Below are positions 10,654-17,320 of a DNA stretch of 64,000 nucleotides, one piece after another. The stretch is from positions 434,001 through 498,000 of the forward strand of contig PKUK01000001.1 in NCBI GenBank assembly GCA_002869535.1, given 5' to 3'. The position numbers were made by a program, and so were the translations under genes. The first letter of the stretch is position 1, and each line of letters begins with the position of its first letter. This stretch comes from Arcobacter sp. GTDB taxonomy: Bacteria > Campylobacterota > Campylobacteria > Campylobacterales > Arcobacteraceae. The notes under the pieces were generated by a model. That model made no database searches. It was given only the letters and a program-made list of their open reading frames with translations, and was not told the origin of the DNA.

Positions 10654-11748
10654 ATGAACTACCTAACTGACCTAATGGCCATTATGAGTATAAACTCATA
10701 TACAAAAAATAAAATCGGCGTTGATAATGTTGGCAAATTTATGTCAACATGGCTGGAAGATTTAAACTTTCAAAAGAAAATATACACTCGTGAATTAATC
10801 GGTGATCATTTACTTTTTTCATCAAAGAAAAAAGATGGAACTAAAATTCTACTTTTAGGTCACAATGATACCGTATTTCCTGCAAATAGCTTTGAAGATG
10901 TAAGCGAAGATGAAGAGTGGATTTATGGTCCAGGTGCTTGTGATATGAAAGGTGGAAATATTGTTGCCTTACAAGCTCTTAGAAATATATATACTAGCAA
11001 TAAAGAGATTTTTAATATAGATTTTTTACTCGTTTCGGATGAAGAATCAGGTAGTGATGACTCTAAATTAGTTACTTCTTCTATAGCAAAAAATTATGAT
11101 TTATGTTTTGTATTTGAAGCTGCTGGAGAGAATATGGAAGTTGTTACTCAAAGAAAAGGAGTAGGAACTTTTACTATACATATTGAAGGAAAAGCTTCAC
11201 ATGCAGGAAATCATTATGATAAAGGAATTGATGCAAACTTAGAAGCTAGTTTTAAACTACAAGATTTAGTAAAACTAACAAATCTAGATTTGCAAACAAC
11301 TGTAAATGTTGGTAAGATAAATGGAGGAATTGGTGCAAATACGATATCTCCAAAATGTGAATTAACCTTAGAGATTAGATACACGTCTAATGACGAGAAA
11401 CAAAGAGTTCTTAATGCTATTGATACAATAGTCAATAAATCATATGTCAAAGGAACTCTCTCTACGCTTACTGGGTCAATTCAAAGAGATGTTATGCAAG
11501 AAAATTCTAAACAATTAGAATTAATCAGTCAAATAGAGATGATTACAAATAGTAAGCTATTAACTGAAAAAAGAGGTGGTGTAAGTGATGCTAATATAGT
11601 TGCATCTTGTGGTGTTACAACTTTAGATGGTTTTGGCCCTTATGGGGATGGAGATCATACCATAAAAGAAAGAGCATTAAAAGATAGTTTTCCAAAAAGA
11701 ATTGATTTAATGACTAAAATTTTAGCTCATTTTCAAAATAACAACTAA
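10654..11748 (+). CDS. M20 metallopeptidase, carboxypeptidase G2-like
   Basis: A 364-residue zinc peptidase of the M20 family, closest in pattern to glutamate carboxypeptidases such as CPG2. Metal and catalytic positions are visible: LGHNDTV (His, Asp), GACDMKGG (bridging Asp), SDEESGS (catalytic Glu pair) and GDGDHT (C-terminal His). The dimerisation domain lies between. There is no signal peptide, so it acts in the cytoplasm, unlike secreted CPG2. It is the first of four tightly packed genes, 12 bp before the first ATP-grasp ligase. By association it probably trims or recycles a terminal amino acid, perhaps glutamate, from whatever the ligases build; this is inference. Confidence 0.88.
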   Translation: MNYLTDLMAIMSINSYTKNKIGVDNVGKFMSTWLEDLNFQKKIYTRELIGDHLLFSSKKKDGTKILLLGHNDTVFPANSFEDVSEDEEWIYGPGACDMKGGNIVALQALRNIYTSNKEIFNIDFLLVSDEESGSDDSKLVTSSIAKNYDLCFVFEAAGENMEVVTQRKGVGTFTIHIEGKASHAGNHYDKGIDANLEASFKLQDLVKLTNLDLQTTVNVGKINGGIGANTISPKCELTLEIRYTSNDEKQRVLNAIDTIVNKSYVKGTLSTLTGSIQRDVMQENSKQLELISQIEMITNSKLLTEKRGGVSDANIVASCGVTTLDGFGPYGDGDHTIKERALKDSFPKRIDLMTKILAHFQNNN

Positions 11749-11760
11749 GAAAGGAATAAC

Positions 11761-12675
11761 ATGGCAAAAAGAGAAATAGGTATGTGGCTTTACCAAAATA
11801 GTGGTGGAGAAGAGATACAAAAAAAGATTATAAGCAAGCTAAATGAAAGGGATATTGTTACTCATCCTAATTTAAATTTACGAAATGCAATTGCTAAAAA
11901 CTCTCATATAATGTACGATAAAATTAAGTTAGAAAAACTTGACTTATTTTTCTCATATAATGCAGGAGAGCAAACTCAGTATCAAATGTATTTATATAAA
12001 GCCCTAAATAGAGTTATTCCAATGATTAATAATTATGAAGCATTTGAACTTACCGAAGATAAATTCCACACATCATTTTTATTAAGAGCAAATGGTGTAA
12101 AAACTGCAGATTATAAGTTATGCCATAGGGATGATACACATCATCTTAATACAATAATGAAAAAGTGGTCTAAAATGGTGTATAAACCAACTGATGGTTG
12201 GGGTGGAGTTGGACTTACAAAAATAGAGAATGAAGAGACTCTAAATATGCTTATTCCTTTTTTAAATCAAATGGATTTAAGATTTTTTTACGTTGAAAAA
12301 TTTATCGATTATGATAATACTGACTATAGAGTTGATATTGTTGATGGTCAATTTGTAGGATGTTATGGAAGAAAAGCAAATGGTGCTGATTGGCGTACAA
12401 ATGTAACTAGTGGAGGAAGCGTGTTTTTAAGAGAGCCAAATGAAGATGTAATCAATTTGGCACTAAAAGCAACTAAAATCACTGGGCTTGATATTGCAGG
12501 TGTTGATATAATATATGATAGAAAGAAAGAGGAATATATTGTATTAGAAGTAAATGGTATACCTGCCTTTGCAACACCAGAACAAGAGAAAATGGGCTTA
12601 AACTTCAATGATAAAAAAATTGATTTGATTGTTGATTTAATAGATAGAAAAACAAAAAAAGAGGATAAAAAATGA
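11761..12675 (+). CDS. RimK-like ATP-grasp amino acid ligase
   Basis: A 304-residue ATP-grasp protein of the alpha-L-glutamate ligase (RimK/MptN) type. The ATP-binding Lys142 is followed by a glycine-rich loop (DGWGGVG). Metal ligands are intact: Asp249 in AGVDII and Glu263/Asn265 in LEVNG. Such enzymes activate a carboxylate as acyl phosphate and join it to an amine. It overlaps the next ATP-grasp gene by 4 bp (ATGA) and follows the M20 gene by 12 bp. The acceptor could be a small peptide, cofactor or protein tail; the sequence does not tell. Confidence 0.85.
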   Translation: MAKREIGMWLYQNSGGEEIQKKIISKLNERDIVTHPNLNLRNAIAKNSHIMYDKIKLEKLDLFFSYNAGEQTQYQMYLYKALNRVIPMINNYEAFELTEDKFHTSFLLRANGVKTADYKLCHRDDTHHLNTIMKKWSKMVYKPTDGWGGVGLTKIENEETLNMLIPFLNQMDLRFFYVEKFIDYDNTDYRVDIVDGQFVGCYGRKANGADWRTNVTSGGSVFLREPNEDVINLALKATKITGLDIAGVDIIYDRKKEEYIVLEVNGIPAFATPEQEKMGLNFNDKKIDLIVDLIDRKTKKEDKK

Positions 12676-14168
12676 AAAAACTGCCAAAGATAGGATTCTT
12701 ATATTTAGATTATGTAATGAGATTTTTTGATAAGTCAAACTTTAAAGGCTGGCCAGATAAAATAGAAACTGTTACATACCATTGGAAAAATGACAAAGCT
12801 AGGTTCATAAAAGAGATTAAAAGAAAAAAGATTGAAGTACTAATTGGGAATATTCCGGCAACTGCATATGAGACATTTGTTGAGATATCACAAGAGCTTC
12901 CAAATGTAAGATTTGTACCCTCAATTGAAACACAGTTTTCAAATAAATCAAAAGAGAATGTAACTCTATTTTGTAAGAAATTTAATATTTCAATTCCTAA
13001 AACAAAAATCTATTATGATAAAGATAAGGGGTATGATTATCTAAAAAATAAAGCTACTTACCCACAAATCATAAAAAGAAGTTACGGAGCATCTAATTAT
13101 GGTGGATATTTTGTTCATAAAGCTGATAGTTACAAAGAAGCAAAAAAACTTCTAGATGAAAAAAAATATAACCCTATTTACACTCAAAATGCGATTGATT
13201 TAAAAGATTCAGGGGACATTAGAGTAATGCTTATAGGACACAAACCTATTTGTGCTTTTTGGAGATATTCAGGTACTGGAGAATGGATAACAAATACATC
13301 ACAAGGTTGTTCGATGTCTTATGAAAATATTCCTATGAATGCTCTTGAACTAGCTGTAAAAGCAAGTAAAGCGGCAAAAGCTGAATATTGGGCTTGTGAT
13401 ATTGCTATTTGTGCTAAAACAGGAAAAGCATATATTTTAGAGTGTGCAACTGCCTTTGCTGCTTTCCCTTACATAAGAGACTGGATTTGTCAATACTTGA
13501 TGTGGGACTTTTCTATGGGAAGATTTAAAAAACCTCATGTTCCAATGTTCTCTTGGGAAGAGTTAGGGAAAATAGACTCTTCATTACTTAGAACAATGAG
13601 ACATATAGGGTTTAGTAAATATAAACCTAGTTTTGATGGAGAGTATTTTTTAAATTATACAAAAGGCTTTGATATGTCTTTAACAGAAATAAGTAATGAA
13701 AATGATGTTCCAGATTCTATTGCACCAAAAGATTTAGAAAAAACCTATGCAAAACAAGCAAGCACTGTTGTTGAGTTTGAAAAGAAAAAAATCAATTTAA
13801 ACGAAGCTACTTTGACAGATTTAATGTCTTTATACGGTATGGAAGAAGATTTAGCTTTTGAAATCAAAGAATATTTAGATGAAAACATAATAACAGATAG
13901 TTCTGATTTACTTGAAATAGAATCAATAGATAAACAAATGCTAAAATCATGGGACCAAACAATTGGTGATATGAGAGTTGACATAAATAGTGCATCAAAA
14001 GAGATTTTAAAGAAAATAAAAGGGATAGGACCAAAGCTTGCAAAAGTTATCCTTGATTACAAAGAAAAGGTAACTTCAATTAAAGATATTGAAGAGTTAA
14101 AAGAGATAGATGGTATAGGAAAAAATAAGTTTAATCAGCTAAAATCCAGATTAAAAGTAGGAGAATAA
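12672..14168 (+). CDS. ATP-grasp protein fused to two helix-hairpin-helix repeats
   Basis: A 498-residue two-part protein. Residues 1-300 resemble a RimK-like ATP-grasp ligase: Lys135 with a GASNYGG loop and Asp243. The metal motif that reads Glu-x-Asn in the upstream ligase reads Glu257-Cys-Ala259 here, so the conserved Asn is gone and catalysis is doubtful or altered. Residues about 374-425 and 434-496 are two ComEA-like helix-hairpin-helix modules (INLNEAT..., VDINSAS...IKGIGPKLA), usually binding DNA or serving as protein-protein platforms. It is coupled to the active ligase by a 4-bp overlap, suggesting a heteromeric enzyme. Confidence 0.82.
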   Translation: MKKLPKIGFLYLDYVMRFFDKSNFKGWPDKIETVTYHWKNDKARFIKEIKRKKIEVLIGNIPATAYETFVEISQELPNVRFVPSIETQFSNKSKENVTLFCKKFNISIPKTKIYYDKDKGYDYLKNKATYPQIIKRSYGASNYGGYFVHKADSYKEAKKLLDEKKYNPIYTQNAIDLKDSGDIRVMLIGHKPICAFWRYSGTGEWITNTSQGCSMSYENIPMNALELAVKASKAAKAEYWACDIAICAKTGKAYILECATAFAAFPYIRDWICQYLMWDFSMGRFKKPHVPMFSWEELGKIDSSLLRTMRHIGFSKYKPSFDGEYFLNYTKGFDMSLTEISNENDVPDSIAPKDLEKTYAKQASTVVEFEKKKINLNEATLTDLMSLYGMEEDLAFEIKEYLDENIITDSSDLLEIESIDKQMLKSWDQTIGDMRVDINSASKEILKKIKGIGPKLAKVILDYKEKVTSIKDIEELKEIDGIGKNKFNQLKSRLKVGE

Positions 14169-14172
14169 ATTT

Positions 14173-16758
14173 TTGAAAATACTATACAGATCATACGATG
14201 CTTCAACAACAATTTTTAAAGAACTAGAAGCAGAATATCCAAAATATTTTAAAATAGAATCGATTGGTCAAACTTGGGAAAAAAGAGATATAAATTTAAT
14301 CACAATTTCAAAAAATATAAAAACTGCAAATAGTAAACCAGCACTATTTTATACTGGAACTATTCATGCAAGAGAATGGATAGGACATGAATTAGCAATT
14401 GAATTTGCTTCTTATGTTCTAAGAAACTTAGAAACCGACCCAACACTACAAACTTACTTAAGCGAAAGTACTATATACATGGTACCTTGTGCAAATCCAG
14501 ATGGATATGAATATTCAAGAAACCATTTCTCTTTTTGGAGAAAAAATAGAAGACAAAATATGGATGGGACTTATGGAGTAGATTTAAATAGAAACTTTCC
14601 CATAGGATTTGTAAAATCTACAAATACCTCTTCAAATGTATATGGAGGACCTGAACCTTTTTCTGAACCAGAAACTCAAAGTCTAAGGGATTTTGTTTTA
14701 GCTCATCCAAATATTACAATTGCATTAGATTATCATAGTCAAGGAAATGTTTTCTTTCCTGCTCATGATTTTAGACATGAAGATACTATTGATACAATTG
14801 ATATGAATACATTATGTGCAAATATGGCAGAAGAGATTAGAAAAATATCAGGACGAGAGTATGGTATACACCAAGGTAAACCACCAGCAAAACTAATCTC
14901 TGGAAGTGGAAGAGAGTTTTACTATTCACAAGGTATATTATCATCTGTGGTAGAAGTTGGAACTAGGAATATTAGTGATTATATGGAAGATATGAATGAA
15001 AATATTAGAGAACATATTCCAGCTTTAATTTATGCCTTAAAAGAAGTTGATAACTATAGTAAAAACTCTCCTATGTCGAGAGTAAACTCTTTTGATGTAA
15101 CTGAAATTGGTTCTAATCATGTAAATTTAAAATGGGATTTTACAATAGACAAAGATGTATATTTCGAAATATTTAGAAGTCGTAGCGATAAACACTTTTG
15201 TAACGCATCTAATTTGATTACAAAAACACAAAGCTTAGAGTTTAGTGATATTAATTTAGCATCAAATAAAGATTACTTTTATAATATCAGAGCTGTAAAT
15301 AAAAAAACAAATCAAAAATAACCTTTTTATCCACAAATTAGAGTTAGAACATCAGTAGAGTATGATGAATATAGTAGAACTTATTACGCAAATGCAAAAG
15401 GTACAGGTTACGTTGCTGAAAATTTAAATAATAATCCTAAACATTTTGGTATAAATTCTTTATTTGTTGGAGTTGATGAAAATAAAGGTATTTCTTATGC
15501 TGTTATATCTATAAATATGAAATCTCTTCCTCAAAATGCCCTTATAAAAGTAGCTTCTTTTAATCTATATCCTATTAACAGAGTTTCGACAACAATTGAA
15601 AAATATGGTGAATGGAATGTTGGACTTGTTAATCAAGAAACTATGGGTGATATTACAAATTTTGAAGATGTAGATAATATGGAAATAATCAGATACATTG
15701 GCCGACCAACTGAATCACATCAGCTTACACAAGGGATTTGGAGAACTTGGAGTTTATCAGGCTCAGAGTGTGTGGATTTAAAAAAATCAATTCTCAATGA
15801 TACTATCGTATTAAGAGTTGAAGGGCCCAAAGAGTTAAGAGTTGGACGAACTAAACAGATGATGCAATGGGATATTGGATATGGGAAGTATGGTTTTGGT
15901 TTATCATATAGACCACGACTTGAATTAACATATACTATTGAACCTACAGTTGCAACTTTATATCCAAAATCTATTCATACAGTAAGTAAAACAGAAGTAA
16001 CAGATGATGTAATAACTGCTGGTTTTGATGAAAAAGGAAATAAGATATATTCTACTTTCAAGTTTAACTTATCGTCTCTTCCTCCTTATAATGACACAAT
16101 GATTACTAAAGCTTATTTTGAATTAAACTCTACAAAAATCTATATAAAAGATGATATTAGATTCCATTTAGAGTTTGTAGATGAAAATATTGATAAAAGT
16201 TATAGAGATATTACAAATAGAGAAGTAATTCAAAATGTTGGTTATGACGTTAGTGCAAATGAACTAAAAAACAATCAAACCCAATACTTTATGTTTGATT
16301 CCTTTTCTGAAATTATTTTAAATGAAAAGCTAAAAAATAAATCAGATATTGCCTTTGTATTAAAGCCTACATCGGCTACTAAAATAATAAAAGATAAAAC
16401 TGTTTCTTGGGAAGCAAATAATACTGCCCTTTGCCCAAAATTAATTATTGAACATATTCCTAAAAGAAGACTTCCTGTTGAACAAGTTACAAATGCCCAG
16501 TTAGTTATGGAAAATGGTAAAATAAAAGTCACTTGGAATAACCCAAAAGATCCAGATTTTACAGGTGCAAAAATAATTAAAAATGCTTATAGAAAACCTC
16601 TATCTGCACAAGATGGTCAAAAACTTTATGCAGGTGTAGATGAATATACACTAGATGACTTTGGAGCTACTGATATAGATAAGTATTATGCAATATTTAC
16701 TTATGATGATGTTCCAAACTATTCTGAACCTATTATTTTAGAATATAAAGCTAAATAA
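14173..16758 (+). pseudogene. M14 zinc carboxypeptidase with FN3 and DNRLRE-like modules, interrupted by in-frame TAA
   Basis: One frame runs 14173-16758 (862 codons) with a single TAA at 15319-15321 (codon 383). Upstream is a complete M14 domain: zinc ligands His65, Glu68 and His188, Asn139-Arg140 and catalytic Glu261. An FN3-like module ends at the stop. Downstream the frame is open for 478 codons with two related beta-sandwich units (each with a FNL..LP pattern, DNRLRE-like) and a final FN3-like segment. A perfect terminator hairpin overlaps the last codons at 16758, so the natural gene end is there. Start is TTG after TAGGAG, 4 bp behind the ATP-grasp-HhH gene; there is no signal peptide. 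The peptidase domain alone could still be made. Confidence 0.8.
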
Positions 16759-16773
16759 TTTTTATTTAGCTTT
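16747..16773 (+). terminator. Rho-independent terminator of the M20/ATP-grasp/M14 operon
   Basis: A perfect 12-bp stem (AAAGCTAAATAA with TTATTTAGCTTT), 3-nt loop and T run. The left arm contains the final sense codons and stop of the M14 frame. Its position shows that the transcription unit extends to the end of the frame beyond the internal TAA. Confidence 0.8.
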
Positions 16774-16819: not shown

Positions 16820-17320
16820 ATGATATTGAAATTTAAAGAATTTTACCCACAAATAGACCCAAGTGCTTGGATAGCTCCAAGCGCTGATTTAATTGGAAAC
16901 ATAACTATAGTCGAAGATTCATCTGTTTGGTTTGGCTGTGTTATTCGTTCTGATGTTAATGAAGTAAAAATAGGCAAAAATAGTAATATCCAAGACTTAT
17001 CATGTATTCACACTGATACAAATACAAAAACAATAATCGGAGATAATGTAACAATAGGCCATAAAGTTATGCTTCATGGCTGTACTATTGAAGATAATTG
17101 TCTAATTGGCATGAGTGCAACAATTTTGGATGATGCAGTAATTGGAGAAGGAAGTATAGTTGGAGCAAATTCACTTGTAACTTCAGGAAAAGTGTTTCCA
17201 CCAAGAAGTTTAATCATGGGAAGCCCTGCTAAAGTAGTGAAAGAGTTAAATCAAGAAGATGTTGATAAATTAATTAAACACGCTGCCCACTATGTTGAAT
17301 ACAAAAATGACTATAGATAA
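16820..17320 (+). CDS. Gamma-carbonic-anhydrase-like protein
   Basis: A 166-residue left-handed beta-helix protein of the gamma-CA/YrdA group, built of hexapeptide repeats. Zinc-binding histidines are present in IHTD and GHKVMLHGC. Family members form trimers; some hydrate CO2, others have no proven activity. It has its own TATAAT at 16787-16792, just after the upstream operon terminator, and a TTAGGAT ribosome site. The family is certain; the activity is not. Confidence 0.9.
   Translation: MILKFKEFYPQIDPSAWIAPSADLIGNITIVEDSSVWFGCVIRSDVNEVKIGKNSNIQDLSCIHTDTNTKTIIGDNVTIGHKVMLHGCTIEDNCLIGMSATILDDAVIGEGSIVGANSLVTSGKVFPPRSLIMGSPAKVVKELNQEDVDKLIKHAAHYVEYKNDYR

Follow-up and report, generated by a model that had tools for sequence, protein, structure and literature searches.

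A conserved four-gene module of two ATP-grasp ligases and two zinc peptidases in Arcobacter, tentatively read as an acidic-residue add-and-remove system

Introduction

To our knowledge few pairs of enzymes that write and erase glutamate tails are known in bacteria, the example being RimK with RimB. In the Pseudomonas RimABK system the glutamates put on by RimK are taken off by RimB (PMC11957791). The Arcobacter locus analyzed here resembles RimABK in pairing a RimK-fold ligase with a protease that would undo the addition made by the ligase. It differs in that its proteases are zinc enzymes of the M14 and M20 families, whereas that of RimABK is the aspartic retropepsin RimB, and in having a second ligase, which carries an HhH tail. 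With the TTLL and CCP enzymes of eukaryotes the locus shares the principle of an ATP-grasp-fold writer combined with an M14 eraser, but TTLL and CCP are directed at tubulin while the M14 of the operon is of the CPA type by predicted fold and by sequence, and the comparison is one of principle only. Like the LysX/ArgX-LysW-LysK systems, the operon has a LysX/ArgX-like ligase and an M20 hydrolase; unlike them, it lies in a genome without the LysW carrier and adds an M14 peptidase.

Two single enzymes are also close points of reference. Carboxypeptidase G2 (CPG2) is the nearest solved relative of the M20 and matches it at the active-site residues, and carboxypeptidase O (CPO) shares with the M14 an Arg at position 255, a residue that in CPO has been tied to a preference for acidic C-termini (PMC9925722). 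In contrast to both, the operon M14 bears FN3 and DNRLRE-like modules, has no signal peptide and is encoded next to ligase genes. The sequence-only reading did not recognize the four-gene combination as a described system, and we likewise found no description of it in open-licence PubMed Central papers. The locus is a real, conserved and apparently undescribed four-gene module.

Results

Organization of the operon

The host genome (2.68 Mb in 12 contigs) has its closest relatives among the Arcobacteraceae. The window, i.e. the whole stretch of 64,000 nucleotides that was analyzed, carries on the forward strand the genes for the M20 peptidase, ligase 1, ligase 2 and the M14 peptidase, in this order and with gaps of 12, -4 and 4 bp. 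This is the four-gene operon proposed from the letters alone; the coordinates bear it out, and Pfam confirms the M20, the two RimK-like ATP-grasp ligases and the M14. The features are as follows.

10654..11748, + strand: M20 metallopeptidase (Pfam M20 and M20_dimer; active-site residues intact)
11761..12675, + strand: ligase 1, RimK/MptN/LysX-type ATP-grasp amino acid ligase (RimK domain; complete motifs)
12672..14168, + strand: ligase 2, LysX/ArgX-like ATP-grasp domain (about residues 1-325) with HhH tail (Pfam, motif and fold comparison)
13848..14159, + strand: HhH tail of ligase 2, ComEA-like HHH_3 units, limits approximate (two HHH_3 stretches)
14173..15321, + strand: M14 carboxypeptidase as encoded, catalytic domain and first FN3 (Pfam M14, E 1e-60; ends at TAA)
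14911..14913, + strand: M14 Arg codon equivalent to CPA residue 255 (alignment to CPA4)
15319..15321, + strand: in-frame TAA in the M14 gene, TCA (Ser) in the nearest relatives (frame and homologue alignment)
15322..16758, + strand: remainder of the M14 gene, with beta-sandwich, DNRLRE-like domain (about 16006-16449) and C-terminal FN3-like domain (DNRLRE_dom match, homologue model, dN/dS)
16747..16773, + strand: A+T-rich hairpin followed by T's, probable terminator (hairpin z -3.4)

The hairpin, a 12-bp stem with trailing T's, overlaps the end of the M14 frame and is plausible as the terminator of the operon. The -10 box that had been assigned to the operon along with the terminator is no better than chance, as promoter-like sites are not above it (30 observed, 39 expected). 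Inspection showed no signal peptides, as had been claimed, and the M14 begins at its catalytic domain. A search for RNA families gave no match. Directly downstream of the operon (16820-17320 in the window) lies a gamma carbonic anhydrase-like gene, which adjoins the operon in many other Arcobacteraceae and is probably a mere neighbour.

The four genes form a conserved module

We surveyed 298 near-complete Campylobacterota genomes. The M14 is present in 32 of them, close M20 orthologues also in 32, and ligase 1 and close orthologues of ligase 2 in 31 each; the complete set occurs in 30/298. Partial sets were seen in G256 (M14 only), G218 (M14 and ligase 2), G061 (M20 only) and G105 (M20 and ligase 1, on a 4-kb contig). 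In the recovered Campylobacterota loci the order M20-ligase 1-ligase 2-M14 was found 33 times, M20-ligase 1-M14 15 times and a divergent M20 6 times, the gaps between genes of the set being mostly short or replaced by overlaps. Ligase 2 is present yet unlinked in G009 and G129, where it adjoins a gene read as efp (EF-P). Because the genes co-occur even where ligase 2 is unlinked, we conclude that the four of them form a genuine conserved module. In Arcobacteraceae the operon keeps its chromosomal place adjoining argG. Two side observations concern other arrangements: in two Sulfurimonas-like genomes (L102:6336-12094 and L103:6020-11674) the unlinked ligase 2 lies between genes read as efp and dnaE, and in G256 (L104:7079-9676) an intact M14 gene adjoins argG, without ligases or M20.

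Outside the Campylobacterota, protein-by-protein searches covered plasmid, phage and viral collections, and one scan of genome contigs found 121 relatives, of which the best 80 were kept. Photobacterium sp. DA100 (Gammaproteobacteria) has all four genes as a divergent copy (54-65% identity) in which no gene is inserted and whose GC content resembles that of its surroundings. The linkage of the genes, which had been named as a point on which the sequence-only reading could fail, is therefore kept both in Campylobacterota and in Photobacterium. Many carriers of the operon are marine by name. The distance correlation of the four proteins does not tell joint inheritance apart from host phylogeny.

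No scanned protein matched a PADLOC defence model, and no true relative turned up when viral contigs were scanned with the M14 and both ligases. One viral match of ligase 1 covers 55 residues only, at the edge of a contig, and looks chimeric: the IMG/VR contig (L114:1-297) joins the ligase-1 fragment to phage-like sequence and is likely a chimeric assembly. A second match is weak (42% over 49 residues). Phage tblastn returned distant ATP-grasps only, all below 60% identity.

The M14 gene contains an in-frame stop codon

The M14 gene had been taken as intact. Its open frame is in fact broken by the TAA at 15319-15321, which ends the product at 382 amino acids, and the frame continues to 16758. 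All 63 aligned full-length M14 homologues have Ser at this position, encoded by TCA in the three nearest relatives. Compared with a genome of the same genus, dN/dS is about 0.06 before the stop and still about 0.12 after it, which argues that the part beyond the TAA has not decayed. Since the homologues all have Ser and the downstream part is still constrained, the TAA is either a sequencing error or a nonsense mutation (C to A) of recent origin. Programmed readthrough was rejected because the homologues carry a sense codon there. If the TAA is real, the M14 of this strain consists of the catalytic domain and the first FN3 only.

The FN3 and DNRLRE-like modules described from the letters were recovered: 9 of 17 M14 homologues match Pfam fn3, and a DNRLRE_dom match was obtained at E 2e-6, below the curated cut-off of the family. 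In the structure model of an M14 homologue the region after the stop is predicted to be all-beta. The FN3 part also shows tail-fibre-like similarity.

Active sites and predicted specificity of the peptidases

Across 63 homologues the M14 equivalents of H69, E72, R127, N144, R145, H196 and E270 do not vary; the equivalent of CPA Tyr248 is not conserved among them. The residue equivalent to CPA 255 is Arg in 62/63 and Lys in 1/63; the solitary M14 of G256 has Lys there. The operon M14 thus has the zinc ligands, the catalytic Glu and the basic residue 255 expected of a CPO-like enzyme, and the basic residue predicts specificity for acidic C-termini. The predicted fold of an intact M14 homologue is CPA-like (Z about 31), at an identity of about 20-26% to M14 chains in the PDB. 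Because the specificity loop with residue 255 is modelled poorly in that homologue, the assignment of residue 255 relies on sequence alignment.

For the M20, CPG2 is the best PDB match by sequence (E 3e-22). Residues H70, D97, E130, E131, E155 and H335, aligned to CPG2, are invariant in 77 homologues, so that the zinc ligands and the catalytic Glu of CPG2 are present. On the NCBIfam glutamate carboxypeptidase model the M20 scores 166.4, below the cut-off of 349.

The two ATP-grasp ligases

Ligase 1 has ExN, TNxxxGG and KPxDG motifs that are conserved in 82 homologues. Its nearest families are MptN (141.7 bits) and rimK_fam (131.7 bits), both below cut-off, and its best PDB match is RimK. By sequence comparison its closest relatives are glutamate ligases. 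It does not qualify as RimK itself (55.9 bits, equivalog cut-off 331, NF007764). An assignment to the F420 or tetrahydromethanopterin pathways, which was to be checked as a possible refutation, did not materialize: ligase 1 is below the cut-offs of MptN (350) and CofF (62.8 bits, cut-off 300), and CofE was not found in the genome.

That ligase 2 is an ATP-grasp protein had been seen from the letters; its HhH tail and the loss of the ExN Asn had been missed. The metal-binding motif reads ECA instead of ExN in 58/58 homologues, and ligase 2 may consequently be non-ligating. It carries a TNTxxGG motif of the LysX type and aligns best with Thermus LysX; its modelled fold, of low confidence (mean pLDDT 65), appears nearest to ArgX, RimK and LysX. 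As a RimK it was rejected (23.1 bits, cut-off 331, NF007764). Pfam detects two HHH_3 stretches in ligase 2, the better one at residues 435-494, and most ligase-2 homologues match HhH families, though the sequence of the tail differs. In one locus (L010:14207-15573) a ligase-1 paralogue and a stand-alone 145-aa HhH protein directly follow the M14 gene. As the tail varies and stands alone in this locus, it looks like a separable targeting module, and it hints at a nucleic-acid-associated target.

The host genome has a separate RimB-RimK locus

Elsewhere in the host genome, contig C5 (L002:731-3089, about 412-414 kb) encodes, head to tail, a RimB-like retropepsin recognized by Pfam, a RimK (359.1 bits, above the 331 cut-off) and an AstE/AspA-type (PF24827) hydrolase. 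With this RimB-RimK pair the host has a further locus for glutamylation, indicating that the operon in the window is distinct from the RimK system. A RimB-type retropepsin is absent from the operon, whose peptidases are the M20 and the M14. The classic RimK target is ribosomal protein S6. In the host S6 ends in -KKSA, and operon-positive Arcobacteraceae look much like operon-negative ones in the S6 sequences extracted, which cover about half of the operon-positive genomes. Operon-positive Arcobacteraceae show no acidic S6 tail, a test that is solid mainly for this family, and S6 is not indicated as the substrate of the operon.

Discussion

Our preferred reading, to which we give a probability of roughly 0.4, is that the operon encodes a cytoplasmic, ATP-driven cycle that adds an acidic residue, most likely L-glutamate, and removes it again. 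An acidic residue is proposed because three features point there: the family of the ligase, the nearest relative of the M20, and position 255 of the M14. With ATP as the energy source, the amino acid would be attached at the carboxyl end of a substrate dedicated to the system and later taken off. Ligase 1 would be the enzyme that adds the residue, and ligase 2, either a second LysX/ArgX-like ligase or a non-canonical partner, would use its HhH tail to guide the reaction to the target. The M14 would trim acidic C-terminal residues, its FN3 and DNRLRE modules acting as binding arms, and the CPG2-like M20 would cleave glutamyl bonds, either at a branch or in small products after their release. 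The sequence-only reading had already suggested a cytoplasmic system for adding and trimming a tag; conservation, co-occurrence and the active sites agree with it, and the tag, previously any amino acid or peptide, is here narrowed to an acidic residue. Several observations count against this cycle: Tyr248 is not conserved, ligase 2 has lost its Asn, S6 lacks an acidic tail in operon-positive Arcobacteraceae and G256 keeps the M14 alone. Moreover FN3 and DNRLRE modules are usually extracellular.

It is possible, if doubtful, that the ligases instead make a small peptide-like metabolite (an osmolyte, a storage compound or a signal) that both peptidases recycle. In the NAGGN and carnosine pathways ATP-grasp ligases likewise work alongside peptidases, small molecules are substrates of M20 enzymes such as CPG2, the operon has no carrier or precursor gene, and the marine names of many of the bacteria that carry it, Photobacterium included, would suit such a product. 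However, an M14 armed with beta-sandwiches and an HhH-tailed ligase better suit a macromolecular target, and the set has neither an acyltransferase nor an amidotransferase. Reversible glutamyl tagging in the style of tubulin, in which the HhH-bearing ATP-grasp partner would single out a nucleic-acid-associated protein for tagging and the dedicated, modular M14 would erase the tag, we consider unlikely.

A carrier system of the LysW/LysX/LysK kind, in which the M20 would free the product from an amino-group carrier charged by the ligases, is improbable. LysK is indeed an M20 enzyme, and ligase 2 is closest to Thermus LysX by alignment and to ArgX by predicted fold, but LysW (TIGR01206) was not found in the genome and no carrier gene lies between the operon genes. 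Slightly less probable again is a peptide of the graspetide type made from a small unrecognized precursor gene: graspetides are made by ATP-grasp ligases (PMC8939145), but a precursor would not fit into the short gaps, the loci examined showed no conserved small frame, and exopeptidases would be odd maturation enzymes. Least probable is an anti-phage or other conflict system, which the patchy distribution and the tail-fibre-like similarity of the M14 FN3 part might suggest but which fits poorly with the lack of PADLOC matches and of true relatives on viral contigs and with the stable site beside argG in Arcobacteraceae.

If the cycle of adding and removing an acidic residue is real, the operon would represent a second writer and eraser pairing, one that uses unrelated zinc peptidases and travels as four genes. 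Its retention in free-living Campylobacterota and in Photobacterium would then point to an unknown modified protein or metabolite in these bacteria.
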